A DNA stretch of 26,360 nt, taken from positions 1 to 26,360 of IMG/VR virus record IMGVR_UViG_3300025073_000157; one strand, 5' to 3'. This document shows positions 11,029-25,140 of this stretch, piece after piece; the first letter of the stretch is position 1; each line of letters opens with the position of its first letter. The DNA comes from a virus. The notes beneath the pieces are model-generated. The model had not been told where the DNA came from, ran no database searches, and was given only the letters and a program-made list of their open reading frames with translations. The position numbers were made by a program, and so were the translations under genes.

Positions 11029-12036
11029 CTAGGCCACTACTTCCTCAGTATTGAGGATGATGTTGTTGTCCAACCTCCTGCAAGGCACTCCGCTAAAGGT
11101 CATGATGGGCAAACCGCCAAGACCTTCAGAGGTTGACCAGTTGACATTGCTCTTGTCTTTGAGCCTGATCTGGCCTTGCGTGGCAATGGTTTTGTTCATG
11201 TAAATCCTGGTTCCTGGGCCTTCAAAATGCCCAAGATTAAGCACTTCAATCAACTTGTCCTCATCAAAGGTGTATTTGCCTGACCCGCTGGTTATGTCGA
11301 TATTGGGCACTCGTCCGATGGCCAGTTCGTCTTTGACTGCCAAGCCGACATACCACTTGAACTGGGTAACATAGGCATAGAACTTATTGTCAGAAGCATC
11401 GAGACAAGGTTCTGTACCTTTATCTACTGTGGACAAGCCAAGTTTGCCACGCTTGGCGGCGGCAGCAGGATAGATGCAATAAACCGTATTGCGGCCCCAG
11501 TTGACCACATAAATCGAGGTCAAAGTGCTGGCAGTAGTGCCTCCATTGTCAACCACGGTCGTCAGGCTGAGAGCAGCCAGTCGTTGTTGCAGACCTACGA
11601 TTTCTTCGGGGGCTACGACAGCCGAACCTTCGGTAGTTCCCCAGATAAGGGTTTTGGCAAATTCCTGGGACAAACCTTCGACAAAGGCCAAATCTTCGTT
11701 CCGCCGGAATTGAACAGGATTGGGGGCATTATCAACCAAAGCCTCGTCAATCTCGCTGCGGGCTTCCAGCAAGGCCGTAGGTTCGACCGCGACCTGCTTG
11801 CTGGCCGCTTCCTTGGCCACGCCACTGTTCACTTTGCGCCAAGTGCCATGCGGAAGGGTAGCTCGGCGGGCCACCTTTTCGGACAATATCTGGTTACATT
11901 CGTACCAGGGAATATCCTCCAGGATTCGGCCCTGATTAGCGTTCATCACCTCGGCAATGTCGATCATGCCTTTGTCTAAAATAGACTTAGACAATTCCAG
12001 AAAAGTCAGTTGTGAATTGGGATATAAAGTTGACAT
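11029..12036 (-). CDS. Major capsid protein (HK97-like fold, BPP-1 type)
   Basis: A protein of 335 residues. Recognisable parts are the N-terminal helix with IDIAEVMNANQGRILEDIPWYECNQ, then RRATLPHGTWRKVNSGV, the segment FRRNEDLAFVEGLSQEFAKT followed by LIWG, the central STLTSIYVVNWGRNTVYCIYP strand and the C-terminal GLGGLPIMTFSGVPCRRLDN, which follow the layout of the major capsid family found in BPP-1-like and P22-like podoviruses. It has no protease-cleavage domain. It sits between scaffold and cement genes. Expression should be high: a consensus-like promoter lies at 12426-12454 and a 189-nt structured leader precedes the ATG, with AGGAG eight to nine bases upstream. Length is typical for the family. 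Confidence 0.85.
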   Translation of the reverse strand: MSTLYPNSQLTFLELSKSILDKGMIDIAEVMNANQGRILEDIPWYECNQILSEKVARRATLPHGTWRKVNSGVAKEAASKQVAVEPTALLEARSEIDEALVDNAPNPVQFRRNEDLAFVEGLSQEFAKTLIWGTTEGSAVVAPEEIVGLQQRLAALSLTTVVDNGGTTASTLTSIYVVNWGRNTVYCIYPAAAAKRGKLGLSTVDKGTEPCLDASDNKFYAYVTQFKWYVGLAVKDELAIGRVPNIDITSGSGKYTFDEDKLIEVLNLGHFEGPGTRIYMNKTIATQGQIRLKDKSNVNWSTSEGLGGLPIMTFSGVPCRRLDNNIILNTEEVVA

Positions 12037-15409: not shown

Positions 15410-15701
15410 TATACTGCCTCCTCTCTGGTGGTGGCCTGAGCAGGTTTGTCCCTGCATCGAACACACGTTTTGATACCTGCTCACCTGCTATTTCGTATAT
15501 GGTTTTCACGATTTCGTTTGTTTTATGGTTTATAATCCTGGTTTCGCGTAAAATACCATCTATTAAAATACCCTCTCTCAATTTTACCTCCAAACAATGT
15601 TTGTCTTTTTCTGCCTGATCACGCTGCTTTCGCAAGACCTCGTTTTGACATTCCAGAGCTTTTATGTATTCTCTGTCTTTCTCATTGTTCCGGAATCTCA
15701 T
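15384..15701 (-). CDS. Unknown coiled-coil protein
   Basis: A 105-residue hydrophilic protein. Residues 1-45 (EYIKALECQNEVLRKQRDQA and following) look like a coiled coil; the rest has ILIDGILRETRIINHKT and a basic C-terminus. There is no signal peptide or membrane segment. It begins inside the end of the large terminase gene as ATGA and has GGAAGGA before it; its end overlaps the start of the 66-residue gene by 26 nt. I do not recognise a family. Place and size fit a small packaging or assembly accessory protein, which is inference. Confidence 0.6.
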   Translation of the reverse strand: MRFRNNEKDREYIKALECQNEVLRKQRDQAEKDKHCLEVKLREGILIDGILRETRIINHKTNEIVKTIYEIAGEQVSKRVFDAGTNLLRPPPERRQYNVWRRFKT

Positions 15702-17236
15702 ATTCTTTTCCTTCCGACTTCAAGCATATCCGCATGGCCCGGTCCATACCTGGTCAAACTGTAAGTCAGGGGGTTATAATTATCAGCCGGCGAATAATCC
15801 TCTACGGCCCGCAAGGGGGCTGGATAGCCGATGCGGACATTGTTGACCAGCAGTTCATAGCGGTAGGTCATGGCTAGGACTCTGAAAGCGGAACTGACAT
15901 GTTCCGTCCAATCTCGGATGGGATGTTCAAAATATATGGGCCTATCGGTGGTGGAGAGGTTGTTGTTTATCTGCCGTCTGAAACTGCGCATAGCTTCGAT
16001 GCCTTCTTCGCACTTGGGCTGATGGAATTGGCAGAGGTAGAGCAAATCTCTGACGGCGGCGATGGAATCTTTCAAGTCGTACTTTTCATTGACTTGAAAA
16101 TCTATGCCTAATTCATGTGCGGTATCAATTAGGTATTTGCCGGTTTGTATGTTTTTGGCATTAGGGCCTTTGACATCCCAAGGTGCGAAATGATGGGCAT
16201 AGACATAAGGTTGGCGTTGCAACATAGCGGCATGTTCGGGTAAACCCAGTCCTTTGGAATCATAATAGAAGTCGATAATGCGGATATGGTCTCGGACAAA
16301 CTGAACGAACCAGATGACGGTATGGACATGGCCTATATCCCAGAAGGTATAGACTTTGGCTGTAGGTTCGTAGGGATAGAAACCTATCTGGCCATTGAGC
16401 ATGATGGCGTTCATTTCCTTGCCGAAGTAGGTGCTTTCGCCGTAGTCAGGCAGTTCGCCCATGATGCGAACGCGATATTCATTGGAATTTTCACCATATT
16501 TTTCACGGAGGTCTTGTTCATATTGGCGACCAGCGACGCCGGGTATGAGTTCCTGGCCGGTAATAAAGTTAGGGGTATCTTTGACGGCGATGGCTATTTG
16601 GTTCCACCCGCTTTCCGGCTGGAAGCACTCGGCGAAGTTTCCTTGCGGACTGGTGGGGTTGCCTATAACCAGCCAACGGGTAAAACCAGAAGTCAAGAGG
16701 TGCTGTGCGGCCTTCCAGAGTTGGGGCATGATCCCGGCAGCCTCGTCAAAAATAACCATTACGGAATCATTGTGATAGCCTTGAAAGGCGGTGGCTTCGA
16801 GCGTAACCGTATCAGGTTTGGCGGCGAAGCCCAGGGCGTACCATTTCTTGCCTATTTCGTCCTGAAGGTCTAATTTACACCGGCTGATTCGTCCGCCCAG
16901 TGGTATTTTAGCGTTGGAATGTGCTTGACGAATTTCACGCCAGAGAATTTCGATTACTTGACGAAATGTGGGACTGGTAGTTATTACCGTGGCTGGATTA
17001 TGGCAATAAAGAAACCATAAAGCCAACCTGGCAGCACAAAAAGTTTTTGACACGCTATGCCCCGCACGGACGGCGGTGCGTGGATTGTCTCTAACGCTTT
17101 CGGCGATCTCCGCCATTTTGCTCCAGACATGGCCAGGGGCCACGTCCAAGGCTTCGGTCAGGAACCTGATAGGATTGTCTCTCCAAATCTTCCGGCGTTT
17201 AGAGAGGCTCTGCGGGCTTATGGTTTCTAGCGGCAT
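15698..17236 (-). CDS. terL: Terminase large subunit (TerL)
   Basis: A 512-residue packaging motor: it translocates DNA into the prohead by ATP hydrolysis and cuts concatemers. The ATPase part has a Walker A-like RAGHSVSKT (residues 57-65), Walker B with catalytic glutamate VMVIFDEAAG (159-168, D164-E165) and the coupling motif LVIGNPTSPQG (about 189-199). The nuclease part has VYTFWDIG (D300 as metal ligand), IDFYYDSKG (D322, D326) and RDWTEHVSSAFRV (D442, H446). All expected motifs are present. The ATG overlaps the small terminase gene by 38 nt and has only a weak binding site, so coupling is likely. The Walker A is of the non-canonical G-x-x-x-SKT form, usual for many phage terminases. Confidence 0.92.
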   Translation of the reverse strand: MPLETISPQSLSKRRKIWRDNPIRFLTEALDVAPGHVWSKMAEIAESVRDNPRTAVRAGHSVSKTFCAARLALWFLYCHNPATVITTSPTFRQVIEILWREIRQAHSNAKIPLGGRISRCKLDLQDEIGKKWYALGFAAKPDTVTLEATAFQGYHNDSVMVIFDEAAGIMPQLWKAAQHLLTSGFTRWLVIGNPTSPQGNFAECFQPESGWNQIAIAVKDTPNFITGQELIPGVAGRQYEQDLREKYGENSNEYRVRIMGELPDYGESTYFGKEMNAIMLNGQIGFYPYEPTAKVYTFWDIGHVHTVIWFVQFVRDHIRIIDFYYDSKGLGLPEHAAMLQRQPYVYAHHFAPWDVKGPNAKNIQTGKYLIDTAHELGIDFQVNEKYDLKDSIAAVRDLLYLCQFHQPKCEEGIEAMRSFRRQINNNLSTTDRPIYFEHPIRDWTEHVSSAFRVLAMTYRYELLVNNVRIGYPAPLRAVEDYSPADNYNPLTYSLTRYGPGHADMLEVGRKRI

Positions 17237-19223: not shown

Positions 19224-19643
19224 TTATTTGCCTAATCTTAACTTGCGAGACTGTCTTTCTGTCAATAAAATGTCTTTTTTGCCGCCGTTACATTCCTGGC
19301 AAGCCGTTACAAGGTTGGTTTCTATAGATTTACCACCATTGCTTTGTGGATTTATATGGTCAACAACGAGTTTTGCTCCGTCTTGAGGTGTTTTTCCGCA
19401 ATATTGGCATGTAAAATTGTCTCTGGCAAGTATGTTAAATCGCAAAGATAAATATGCCGGTTCTTTAGCAGGCGAAATTTTACGGCGAAATCTGGCTGCC
19501 TCGCCTCGGCATTTGTCCGAACAGTATTTCTGCCCTGGCCTACGGATTTTAGTGGATGTCGAAATGTACGAATGGCACATTACACATTTCGGTAAGCCTA
19601 TTGTAAAATCTATACCTGGAAATTCATCCCGTCTTTTTAACAT
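19224..19643 (-). CDS. HNH endonuclease with N-terminal zinc finger
   Basis: A 139-residue protein. Cysteines C20, C23, C41 and C45 form an N-terminal zinc finger. The catalytic part has FTCQYCG (C79, C82), VVDHINPQSNGG (D95-H96), N110 and C115-x2-C118, matching the HNH motif with structural zinc. Such free-standing enzymes in phages cut DNA at specific sites and often act as homing endonucleases; a packaging role is also known for some phage HNH proteins near terminase genes. The ATG has AGGAG seven bases upstream. A promoter is present at 19681-19710. Unlike typical TerL-linked HNH proteins this one is separated from terminase by the lysis genes. Confidence 0.83.
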   Translation of the reverse strand: MLKRRDEFPGIDFTIGLPKCVMCHSYISTSTKIRRPGQKYCSDKCRGEAARFRRKISPAKEPAYLSLRFNILARDNFTCQYCGKTPQDGAKLVVDHINPQSNGGKSIETNLVTACQECNGGKKDILLTERQSRKLRLGK

Positions 19644-19952: not shown

Positions 19953-20117
19953 CTACATCGTCATCTTGCGACCAATCTGTAATCGAAACTGCTTGCCATA
20001 TTCTGCGTGATCTTGTGTGCGTACTAAGTCAGCCCATAATCGTTTGAATATACGTTGTTCGTTGTTGATTATCTCTTGTTTTGAAGTTTTTGTTTTTTTT
20101 GCATCTGATTTGTCCAT
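19953..20117 (-). CDS. Small basic unknown protein
   Basis: A 54-residue protein reading MDKSDAKKTKTSKQEIINNE, followed by QRIFKRLWADLVRTQDHAEY. It is highly charged, helix-prone and has no membrane segment. The codon use looks like that of the other genes, which is the main reason for calling it; only a weak GAG precedes the ATG at 20117. It lies downstream of the replication genes on the same strand. Function unknown. Confidence 0.45.
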   Translation of the reverse strand: MDKSDAKKTKTSKQEIINNEQRIFKRLWADLVRTQDHAEYGKQFRLQIGRKMTM

Positions 20118-20147
20118 TATTAGCTCAATATCGAGGGTTACTGGTAA

Positions 20148-20300
20148 TCATAAGTCGCTATTATTATCTGACACGCCATAGGTTACATAAAATACTGCAT
20201 TACAGCGATTGAAAAACACATACCCATACGGGCCACCTATTTCTCTCGCAAGGGCACCGCTAGGCCCTACTACGCCAGCCAAGAGCAGACGTAGCGGCAT
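20148..20300 (-). CDS. Possible short ORF after the 202-residue gene
   Basis: A 50-residue frame (MPLRLLLAGVVGPSGALARE, then YGYVFFNRCNAVFYVTYGVS) starting two bases after the stop of the 202-residue gene. The N-terminus is hydrophobic and could be a membrane or signal segment. There is no clear ribosome binding site, so it would need coupled translation. Existence is uncertain. Confidence 0.35.
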   Translation of the reverse strand: MPLRLLLAGVVGPSGALAREIGGPYGYVFFNRCNAVFYVTYGVSDNNSDL

Positions 20301-20912: not shown

Positions 20913-21686
20913 CTAAAAGGGAATAAGGTCGCCTTTCATCAGCGAATTAGGATTGAAAGCGTCTTGATTGATTACTGTTTTTTGCAATCCTTGAGTTATT
21001 ATACTACCAAGAACCCCCCTATCTTCCGTAGGTTCCTTCCCCCGTTTTTGTTCGCATTTGGCCAAGATTGTTTTGATGCTGGCTGGCGATCCATTTTTGA
21101 TTCTGTCGAGATAGCACTGGTAACAGAATTGCCTGCAGGTTCCGGCTTTGTGTAGGCAGATAAAACAGGTTTGGGGATTGCAAAGTTTAGCGTCGTGGAG
21201 TATTTGCCGGGCCTTGTTTTTGGCGTCCAGGTCGTTTGGGCTGACATAAGCTATCCAGTGTCCACCTCGTCTATGGGTATAATCCTGGCAATGGCGGTGT
21301 AGGTAATCCTGGCTCGGAACCATCCATTCGCCGTTTTCGTTTAGCTTAGCCAGCCATTCATAGGTTTCCATGTCTCCAATATGTCCTTTGCCATTTTCGT
21401 CTAATCGCTCACATATAAAGCAGATATAAGAGAGTTTTTTCGGGATTCCGCGTTGCGGGCTGTCGGTCTGCCAGTCTTTGAGCAGGTCTAGGAAGTCCGG
21501 GAGTGGCGGTTCTATCCTTTGCCCACCTTTGATCTTATAGAAACGCTCTACGCAAGCCAGGGCAGCTCCCAGGCCGTAGGGCAAGAGAATATCAGCCCAT
21601 ATAGCCTCTTGATCGGTATTGGCTGTCCAGCGGGGCCATAAAGACTTGAGTCTAGCTATCACCTTTCCTGTATCTGCTTTATTCAT
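20913..21686 (-). CDS. Helicase-loader-like protein with cysteine-rich zinc region
   Basis: A 257-residue protein. Residues 1-70 (KADTGKVIARLKSLWPRW, then AIWADILLPYGLGAALACVE and PPLPDFLDLL) resemble the N-terminal domain of phage helicase loaders/inhibitors (G40P loader type: T-x-x-x-I-x-x-L-x-x-x-YP-x-x and W-x-x-x-L-x-x-x-x-x-x-x-x-x-x-x-x-x-x-x-x-x-x-x-PP-x-x-x-D-x). The rest is cysteine-rich: CFIC (C89, C92), C133, and C169, C174, C177, C184, C188, C191, giving at least two zinc sites. The ATG overlaps the stop of the replication initiator as ATGA and has AGGGA upstream. It probably helps load the replicative helicase at the origin; the fusion to a zinc region is unusual in what I know of the family. 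Confidence 0.6.
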   Translation of the reverse strand: MNKADTGKVIARLKSLWPRWTANTDQEAIWADILLPYGLGAALACVERFYKIKGGQRIEPPLPDFLDLLKDWQTDSPQRGIPKKLSYICFICERLDENGKGHIGDMETYEWLAKLNENGEWMVPSQDYLHRHCQDYTHRRGGHWIAYVSPNDLDAKNKARQILHDAKLCNPQTCFICLHKAGTCRQFCYQCYLDRIKNGSPASIKTILAKCEQKRGKEPTEDRGVLGSIITQGLQKTVINQDAFNPNSLMKGDLIPF

Positions 21687-22429
21687 AGTATTTTCCCTGC
21701 CTTTTTGAGTTTATCACGTTGTTCGAGTCTTTCGGTTATTGCTGCTGCGTCCTGTTCGACGGTTAGCCTGGTTGGTAGAGCCTTGGCTTCCCGGATTCGC
21801 CTGGTAAGCCAGTTATTGATGGTGAGTTTATGGTTTCTGGTTTTAACTTCTTTGGGATGCTGTAGCAGATAGTCCTCCAGCTCCAATATCATTTCGTCTA
21901 TGGCGATTTTAGTATGTTTTGCTAACAGCCAGTCATAGTCGGTCTGTGTTAGTCTGACAGCTTGGCAACTATCGAAAACTAAGTAGGTCGGTACAGGAGG
22001 ATTACCATAATCCGACCCCATTACTATACTATCCTTTCCTTTAACCAATCCTTTAACAGAAAGAAGGGATTTACTGCTATTGTAGGATTCCGGTAGGTCT
22101 ATCGTACTGCTATCGTAATTAGGATATTTACTGGGACGTGGTTTCTGGATATATTGCAAATCTTTCCAATTGGGGATAGCTAGATAGTAAGTGTCATTGA
22201 CGGCGTACTTTATGATAGAGCCTACCCGTACCAGTTCTGTCAATAATAGACCGATCTTTACCTTGTTACTGGGGAAGATTAGGCTCCTGATGAGTACCTC
22301 ATCCCATTCACCCCTTCCCTCATCATCACAGTAATTATTGAGACCTAAAAGTAAAAGTCGTGCCCACGGCGACAGTTGACGTACTCTTTTCCCTGCCCAA
22401 AACTCTGGACGGAGGCTTCTAATTCGCAT
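21683..22429 (-). CDS. Phage replication initiation protein
   Basis: A 248-residue protein. The N-terminal MRIRSLRPEFWAGKRVRQLS, then ARLLLLGLNNYCDDEGRGEWD and LIRSLIFPSN is a well-known phage replication-protein opening, with a winged-helix DNA-binding domain to about residue 90. A Ser-rich linker follows. The C-terminus (KTRNHKLTINNWLTRRIREA) matches the short helix block that ends many phage O-type and DnaD-type replication proteins and interacts with the helicase. AAGGGAGG lies seven to eight bases before the ATG. Together with the helicase-loader-like gene it forms the core of a replication module. Confidence 0.8.
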   Translation of the reverse strand: MRIRSLRPEFWAGKRVRQLSPWARLLLLGLNNYCDDEGRGEWDEVLIRSLIFPSNKVKIGLLLTELVRVGSIIKYAVNDTYYLAIPNWKDLQYIQKPRPSKYPNYDSSTIDLPESYNSSKSLLSVKGLVKGKDSIVMGSDYGNPPVPTYLVFDSCQAVRLTQTDYDWLLAKHTKIAIDEMILELEDYLLQHPKEVKTRNHKLTINNWLTRRIREAKALPTRLTVEQDAAAITERLEQRDKLKKAGKIL

Positions 22430-22757: not shown

Positions 22758-23168
22758 CTAATCAAACAAACCAAACTGAAAATTAACAGGGATTCTTGTC
22801 CATTTGTGTTTATTACATTTTGAGCAAGCGACTCTTATATTTCGGTAAGAATGTTCTCCACCTTTAGACAATGGCCAGACATGGTCCATTTCCCATTTAT
22901 CGCATAGGACTTTCTGACCGCATAAATAGCATTTTCCCTTACCCCTGGCATATATCTCTCGCCTGTCTAAAACAGGTAAATGCCGACGATATAAGGCTCT
23001 ATGTCGAGCTACATATTTTTTGCCAGTCTCATATCGCTTAATTCTTCTCCATATTACAGCCTGATCGTCTTTTGATAGTGCATACAGACTTTTTAGCTTT
23101 AGTGTGCCAAAATCCGGTCCGGCACGCCAGATTATGGTTTTTACTTGGGCCGATAATCTTTTAGGCAT
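22758..23168 (-). CDS. HNH endonuclease
   Basis: A 136-residue protein from the ATG at 23168. The first 75 residues are basic (MPKRLSAQVKTIIWRAG, WRRIKRYETGKKYVARHRAL). The HNH part follows: C80-x2-C83 (CYLCG), EMDHVWPLSKGG (D95-H96), NIRVACSKCNKHK (N110, C115, C118). All catalytic and zinc residues are present. The role may be a homing or defence-like DNA-cutting enzyme; in this position it separates the replication operon from the divergent control region. Its binding site is weak and a TTG start eight codons upstream is possible. No promoter was identified for it. Confidence 0.8.
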   Translation of the reverse strand: MPKRLSAQVKTIIWRAGPDFGTLKLKSLYALSKDDQAVIWRRIKRYETGKKYVARHRALYRRHLPVLDRREIYARGKGKCYLCGQKVLCDKWEMDHVWPLSKGGEHSYRNIRVACSKCNKHKWTRIPVNFQFGLFD

Positions 23169-23187
23169 TTTTCTACTAATCAATAAA

Positions 23188-23285
23188 GCCAAACCCGGCC
23201 AGGATGCAAGCTATAGTCCCGAAGGAATAGCACTGGCGCAGGTTTGGCATATTTTGTATAAGGGGATCGGAAAGATAGCTTGCAT
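23188..23285. promoter_or_regulatory. Divergent control region with nested inverted repeats
   Basis: Arms ATGCAAGCTAT (23204-23214) and ATAGCTTGCAT (23275-23285) are perfect complements of 11 nt, 60 nt apart. A second pair, GCCAAACC (23188-23195) and GGTTTGGC (23241-23248), crosses them. A UCC-UUCG-GGA hairpin can form on the minus strand near 23216-23226. The region divides the two transcription arms. It could be an operator array, a structured leader RNA for the HNH gene, or part of the origin. Confidence 0.5.
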
Positions 23286-23783: not shown

Positions 23784-24185
23784 ATGAACACAGCAGAAAC
23801 GGTAAAAGTATTTGGCGGGCCGATTTACTCTTATAGCCGAGCATGGGCTATCGAAGACGGAGTCCTGGTTGACCTGGGGCAAGATAAAATGCTAGAAGTG
23901 TGCCAGCAGCACTATAAACATCCCATAGCGTGTACGGCGGCTGTTTGGGGCATTATGGAGCGGGCAGTGGCTAACAAGCGACACGGCAACGATTTCGCCG
24001 GTGTTCTGCATGATATGTTATGGATGAGCCGGAAATACTGCCGTAAACTGGATGAATCAACAGTGATTTATCCAGTTTACGGCAGTATTTCCGGCTCATC
24101 CATAATTTATGATTTCAAGTTACTTGTCGGGCCAGGCGACAATGCCGAGCCAGTGATTACGATTATGCTGCCGACTGAAGATTAG
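23784..24185 (+). CDS. DUF6573-like protein carrying a large palindrome
   Basis: A 133-residue protein from the ATG at 23784 (AGGAG before it; an ATGA-coupled start at 23736 would add 16 residues). It resembles the DUF6573 family: YSRAWAIEDGVLVDL near the N-terminus (residues 17-31), HPIACTAAVWGIME in the middle and LLVGPGDNAEPVITIMLPTED at the end. Such proteins are common in phage and plasmid DNA; their activity is unknown. Codons for residues 79-108 lie wholly within the palindrome at 24018-24105, so half of that segment is dictated by the complementary half. The frame is intact and the family ends are on both sides, so the gene is still whole. Confidence 0.72.
   Translation: MNTAETVKVFGGPIYSYSRAWAIEDGVLVDLGQDKMLEVCQQHYKHPIACTAAVWGIMERAVANKRHGNDFAGVLHDMLWMSRKYCRKLDESTVIYPVYGSISGSSIIYDFKLLVGPGDNAEPVITIMLPTED
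24018..24105. repeat. Near-perfect palindrome with 41-bp stem inside a gene
   Basis: Arms 24018-24053 and 24070-24105 are exact reverse complements for 36 nt. Next inward one G-T wobble (24054/24069) and four further pairs (24055-24058/24065-24068) follow, with a 6-nt loop AACAGT. The left arm includes GAGCCGGAAATACTGCCG and the right one its complement. The structure lies inside the DUF6573-like frame. Such a long exact palindrome is rare in coding DNA. Confidence 0.95.
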
Positions 24186-24464: not shown

Positions 24465-24604
24465 GAAATAAGCATTTGACTGAAGATGGTAAGGTCGTAA
24501 GTTTGGCTCGCAAGGACCTGATGGCCGAAGGTGGGAAGTGCGAGGTCGAGTCAAATGGTATCCTGGAAACTGTTGGATATTTACAAGTTGGCACAGACTA
24601 CTAA
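24461..24604 (+). CDS. Short unknown protein
   Basis: A 47-residue protein (MRNKHLTEDGKVVSLARKDL, then EGGKCEVESNGILETVGYLQ). The ATG overlaps the previous stop as ATGA; no separate binding site is seen, which suggests coupled translation. It is followed 15 nt later by the next gene. Function unknown; codon use and tight packing support that it is real. Confidence 0.5.
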   Translation: MRNKHLTEDGKVVSLARKDLMAEGGKCEVESNGILETVGYLQVGTDY

Positions 24605-24846: not shown

Positions 24847-25140
24847 ATGAAAGCGAAATACACACCTTGGACCATTGTAGAGCGTAACAATGACAAAATG
24901 ATTCCAATGGTCAATATAGAAGGCATAACAAGCGGGGGCCACCCTATTGTTATTAGCCAAGTCTGGGAACGCAGCCAAGCTCGCCTAATCGCCGCCGTGC
25001 CGGAGATGGTCGAGGTGTTGCGGGATATTAGAGATTTGGCCCAAGCCTGGATTGATGGCACTTATCTGTACAACGCCTTGACCGCTGCAAAGTTTCGAGA
25101 GCAAGCTCGCGCCGCACTTTCCCAAGCTGGCGTGGAGTAG
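24847..25140 (+). CDS. Ead/Ea22-like small phage protein
   Basis: A 97-residue protein, start 24847 with AAAAGGAG upstream. The phrase ARLIAAVPEMVEVLRDIRDL is shared by many small phage proteins of the Ea22/ead type (ANARLIAAAPELLEALK). The N-terminal WTIVERNNDKMIP and GGHPIVISQVW segments are beta-like, the C-terminal half is helical. These proteins are usually in early or accessory gene clusters; their function is poorly known. The protein ends with AALSQAGVE. Confidence 0.65.
   Translation: MKAKYTPWTIVERNNDKMIPMVNIEGITSGGHPIVISQVWERSQARLIAAVPEMVEVLRDIRDLAQAWIDGTYLYNALTAAKFREQARAALSQAGVE

Follow-up and report, generated by a model that had tools for sequence, protein, structure and literature searches.

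Results

A long palindrome nested in a DUF6573 gene

The window analyzed here is the whole of a 26,360-nt stretch of viral DNA (IMG/VR record IMGVR_UViG_3300025073_000157). It is a phage contig encoding the small and large subunits of terminase, a major head protein, and a head-tail adaptor. The ORF at 23784-24185 on the plus strand encodes a protein of 133 amino acid residues that matches DUF6573 (PF20213) with a Pfam E-value of 2.8e-21 and a score of 76.4 bits, the gathering cut-off being 27 bits. The gene is intact, has relatives of equal length, and contains a long palindrome with the reading frame kept, as the first-pass annotation of this DNA had stated. No mention of DUF6573 was found in the literature searched. 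A protein search of the INPHARED phages gave no match, and a fold search with the protein model gave no significant match in the PDB (best E-value of 0.088). In the same window, two HNH endonuclease genes (19224-19643 and 22758-23192, minus strand) flank a replication-initiation-like gene (21683-22429), and the HNH gene at 22758-23192 weakly matches recombination endonuclease VII.

The near-perfect palindrome is 88 nt in length (24018-24105). The reverse complement of 24070-24105 is identical to 24018-24053 at all 36 letters. Inward of these 36 pairs, there is a single mismatch (24054 G opposite 24069 T), and inside the mismatch five pairs (24055-24059 with 24064-24068) close a 4-nt loop, ACAG (24060-24063). 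The span, the 36 exact bases on each side, and the five inner pairs had thus been annotated correctly at first, but not the 41 unbroken pairs with a 6-nt loop, since there are one mismatch and a 4-nt loop.

In an inverted-repeat search of the window, this was by far the longest inverted repeat (50-nt arms, 92%, with a 4-nt spacer). The predicted folding energy of the palindrome is -48.6 kcal/mol as single-stranded DNA, compared with a mean of -7.1 kcal/mol for shuffled sequences (z = -20), and that of the RNA is -74.9 kcal/mol (z = -19). In a scan of the window and related phage loci (246 kb), the palindrome scores 38 and the next best inverted repeat scores 15 or less, while the same scan of 465 kb of other loci found no inverted repeat scoring above 22. 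It is the most extreme inverted repeat across the approximately 710 kb of window, related loci, and other loci. That the palindrome is real in the sequence, and far outside what chance would give, agrees with the earlier claim. The accompanying argument that long palindromes are usually lost through SbcCD cleavage was overstated; E. coli tolerates an 85-bp interrupted palindrome even without RecA, the growth of the SbcCD+ recA strain being unimpeded, and SbcCD was considered not to cleave that palindrome during replication (PMC3315005).

Near-clonal contigs have a non-palindromic right arm

Is the palindrome present in related phages? Three IMG/VR contigs from other metagenomes (3300025009, 3300009285, and 3300025117) were compared. 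They encode the same protein with 90-92% identity over the whole length, and their genes (L001-L003) have the same length as that of the window, except for one additional codon close to the start of L003. This comparison of related DUF6573 genes, which had been proposed in the first-pass annotation, revealed that the left arm is identical in L001-L003 and the window, while the right arm is different and non-palindromic in all three and is common to them. Base by base, the L001 gene matches the window up to 24069 and again from 24106 to its end; only 24070-24105 differs. This block reads TCCAGGTCAAAATCACCGGGGCCGGTCGCCAATCTG in the relatives and ATCCAGTTTACGGCAGTATTTCCGGCTCATCCATAA in the window, 36 nt each.

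The similarity extends well beyond the gene. Over 8.2 kb, the clear differences between contig G003 and the window are the 36-nt block and a small indel at 23809, plus one alignment-edge base. Over 8.8 kb, contig G001 has one further internal base different between 15777 and 24069, besides a diverged end (15696-15776). Between 23407 and 24993, the 36-nt block is the only difference between contig G002 and the window. Judging from these alignments, the window and the three contigs are near-clonal.

Some other differences were noticed in these alignments. The indel at 23809, near the start of the DUF6573 gene, is a small in-frame difference (GTATTT versus GAGATTTTT in G003). The alignments of G001 and G003 stop at 24534, while G002 stays identical to its end at 24993, which marks a mosaic breakpoint between near-clonal phages. 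A 200-bp stretch (19983-20182) lying within near-identical sequence is strongly diverged from G002, with several gaps, and is a probable local replacement. By inspection, the clusters of differences at 11452-11483, 15696-15746, and 19983-20182 look like ordinary divergence or mosaic edges. Positions 1-111 of the window exactly match the end of G003 (L036:14842-14952), though G003 starts at window position 16322; this would fit a genome map that is circular or circularly permuted.

The palindrome was then sought elsewhere, as had also been suggested at first. An exact 31-mer scan of IMG/VR found the derived state in one contig only and no palindrome elsewhere, three contigs being matched by the left arm alone; the same scan of GTDB contigs gave no match. 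Since the records closest to the window may be absent from the scanned collections, these scans would miss a second copy from the same sample. The arm has no other copy in the window either. A foldback mobile element, one of the origins first considered, would have long and perfect inverted arms like these. Its insertion is refuted by the equal gene length, which leaves no net insertion; moreover, target duplication is absent, both arms come from the DUF6573 gene itself, and no further copies were found. This origin is scarcely conceivable.

A selected functional element was another early proposal. The very stable RNA fold would suit an RNA or cruciform hairpin that controls the DUF6573 gene or is processed by RNase III. 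However, no comparable hairpin was found there in the three near-clonal contigs or in the other scanned relatives, and the data fit an origin in one step, so recent that the palindrome is missing from near-clonal relatives. A selected element is thus very improbable and unsupported by the related loci, and the hairpin itself is most likely functionless.

The right arm is the derived state

The 24070-24105 block encodes FQVKITGAGRQSV in the relatives and YPVYGSISGSSII in the window, and 11 amino acid residues are substituted between residues 96 and 108. The segment of the relatives has the motif ITGAGR. The counterpart in L004, which is 68% identical, is FKVIITGAARQRN, and bacterial relatives at about 45-50% identity have ITGAGRKRN or ITGTGQKR. 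The sequence YPVYGSISGSSII is unlike any of these motifs. Since counterparts of ITGAGR exist in L004 and in distant relatives among bacteria, this is the ancestral motif, and as judged from these motifs the right arm of the window is the derived state.

The Pfam score of the window protein is modestly lower than that of the ancestral-type L001 protein (76.4 versus 83.3 bits). The AlphaFold models of the two proteins, derived and ancestral, differ little in their elements and in confidence (pLDDT of 84.1 and 83.7, respectively), although this similarity is weak evidence for a kept fold because such alignment-driven models are insensitive to changes of this kind. In both models, the altered residues lie at a predicted beta-hairpin, whose strands in the derived protein are residues 93-102 and 105-117. 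Replacement may be tolerated at this beta-hairpin position.

Anatomy of the replaced block

The left arm (24018-24053, plus strand), unchanged from L001-L003, is the putative template of the copied segment and runs from point 3 to point 2 of the four-point notation. The next 16 positions (24054-24069), G, AATCA, the loop ACAG, TGATT, and T, are identical in the relatives and form a pre-existing hairpin nucleus, with point 1 lying after 24069. The derived right arm (24070-24105) follows, a 36-nt reverse-complement copy replacing 36 ancestral nucleotides; the next best match of this new 36-mer in the window is 10 nt, and there is no other source there. The return point (point 4) lies at the start of an ancestral outer patch, TTTATGAT (24106-24113), which is the same in the relatives and has five fortuitous pairs out of eight with 24010-24017. 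From 24106 onward, the sequence is identical to the relatives to the gene end and, in G002, to 24993. The inner junction (24069/24070) reads GTGATTTATCCAGTTTACGG and the outer junction (24105/24106) reads TCATCCATAATTTATGATTTC. The four points are thus ordered 3 (24018), 2 (24053), 1 (24069), and 4 (24106), that is, 3-2-1-4.

The switch point at 24069/24070 is one base past a stem of 5 bp closed by a 4-nt loop (AATCA-ACAG-TGATT), a kind with only 106 stem/loop entries in the 26-kb window. In the ancestral sequence (L001), the stem forms part of an imperfect hairpin of 10 pairs, CTGGA-tg-AATCA-ACAG-TGATT-t-TCCAG, which at 28 nt ranks in the top 0.9% of the 28-mers of the window for stability. 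The ancestral arms as a whole are paired at 10 of 36 in-register positions, which is the chance level, so that only a short inner hairpin existed. No microhomology was found at the return junction (CCATAA versus ancestral AATCTG).

Discussion

An exact copied block, a derived right arm, an equal length, an in-frame outcome, and a small hairpin that already existed at the switch point were found at this locus. It is likely that one recent double template switch in a phage lineage left this palindrome as its footprint. I infer a switching polymerase as the cause, an intrastrand rather than an interstrand route, and an event that took place in vivo. In the proposed course, during synthesis of the plus strand, the 3′ end (...TGATTT) would fold back onto its own new strand, TGATT pairing with AATCA over the 4-nt loop. 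The extra base can form a G-T wobble, so that the growing 3′ end could use the strand just made as its template. The polymerase would then copy 36 nt of this strand, from 24053 back to 24018, and rejoin the original template at 24106, the position that would otherwise have been reached. Since 36 ancestral bases were swapped for 36 copied ones, the reading frame was kept. Because point 2 comes before point 1, an intrastrand switch is possible. The 3-2-1-4 order is one of the two majority orders of template switches in great apes and gives single inverted repeats (PMC7954356), and 4-nt loops are enriched among template-switch-like changes in rRNA hairpins (PMC8794818). Ripley's model of such switching was derived from phage T4 rIIB and yeast CYC1, and genetic work on E. 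coli thyA supports it (PMC7202029). Template switching had already been listed among the possible origins, and the unswitched close relatives strongly support it; the idea that it simply perfected a weaker long palindrome does not hold, given the chance-level pairing of the ancestral arms.

An assembled contig normally requires several reads across both junctions. Could the palindrome nevertheless be a laboratory or assembly artefact? Fold-back priming in library preparation, amplification, or end repair may create a chimera that enters an assembly, and fold-back artefacts at short inverted repeats have been documented in NGS libraries (PMC10908179). The palindrome exists in this contig alone and is absent from the three other near-clonal contigs; because a single contig carries it, the derived state is not independently replicated. 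However, chimeric reads of this type are described as soft-clipped and low in frequency (PMC10908179), and they would not be expected to rejoin the colinear sequence at precisely the right position, while here two novel junctions are crossed, 36 bases stand for 36, the frame stays open, and colinear sequence resumes, the right flank being identical to G002 for 888 bases. A laboratory artefact, including the amplification chimera among the origins first named, is unlikely because the return to the original sequence is exact in length.

The template switch may also have reached the same product by another route, as a sub-mechanism overlapping the one described above. An interstrand switch, in which the opposite strand of the fork is copied, fits the 3-2-1-4 order as well as an intrastrand one does (PMC7954356). 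In hairpin gap repair, the right arm of a folded strand would be excised and refilled on the left arm, which would account for the exact length; the replacement of 36 bases by 36 with no microhomology at the return, and the weak outer pairing (5/8, 24106-24113 with 24010-24017), would fit this as well. On the other hand, ancestral in-register pairing at the chance level leaves little to hold a long folded hairpin, and the inner 5-bp stem is directly suited to self-priming on a nascent strand. Such routes are a real but minor possibility, and self-priming on the nascent strand is preferred here.

Under self-priming, one feature stands out. The simplest double-switch model does not predict an exact-length return without junction microhomology. 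Microhomology at the return junction is common, but the four-point model does not require it. Selection for the frame accepts any multiple of three and therefore explains the exact length only in part. The patch with five pairs in eight outside the return point might have held the register. As a bolder and rather doubtful reading, a single switch may have written 36 coding bases and changed 11 residues in one step in a replicating phage, with length, frame, and fold kept, through a route that preserves length (hairpin gap repair, for example). Phages would then have a route to the block replacement of protein segments, beyond small corrections.

These near-clonal phage contigs, set apart by one templated block, provide an unusually clean natural before-and-after case. 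If the event is real in vivo, a dozen codons in a phage gene can be exchanged by template switching in one step, above what has been reported for coding genes of yeast, and a long palindrome in a gene is not necessarily an element or a regulatory structure. The locus also provides a concrete sequence for asking why some template switches keep length exactly.

Comparison with known systems

The palindrome is most likely a large and clear instance of a known mutation type, the quasipalindrome template switch of Ripley's model, and not a new genetic element. In the quasipalindrome mutations of T4 rIIB, yeast CYC1, E. coli thyA, and the lacZ QP reporters, the copying of one inverted-repeat arm onto its partner yields a more perfect palindrome, starting from a small hairpin at the switch point, as seen here; the examples of Ripley in 1982 include phage (PMC7202029). 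The QP reporters, however, fix only a few bases in a short palindrome (a 4-bp frameshift beside an 18-bp QP; PMC7202029), whereas here only a hairpin of 5+5 bp was present before a new arm of 36 nt was written. The four-point short-range events of great apes likewise include the 3-2-1-4 order with one inverted repeat, each recognized as a single event against a near-identical ancestor (PMC7954356). Unlike those events, the present one is in a phage, the replaced and replacing segments are equal in length, and the ORF is kept.

In coding genes of Saccharomyces, template switching causes multinucleotide changes that homogenize the arms of inverted repeats and alter neighboring amino acids, as in the DUF6573 gene. 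The maximum there was five replacements in one gene with a final arm of 16 bp (PMC8604942), compared with 11 replacements and a copied arm of 36 bp here. Long perfect palindromes in translated genes are also known from the mitochondria of Nematomorpha (PMC6649704). Those palindromes are numerous, some are common to several species, and both arms encode conserved residues (PMC6649704), while the phage window has a single, recent palindrome with one arm newly written.
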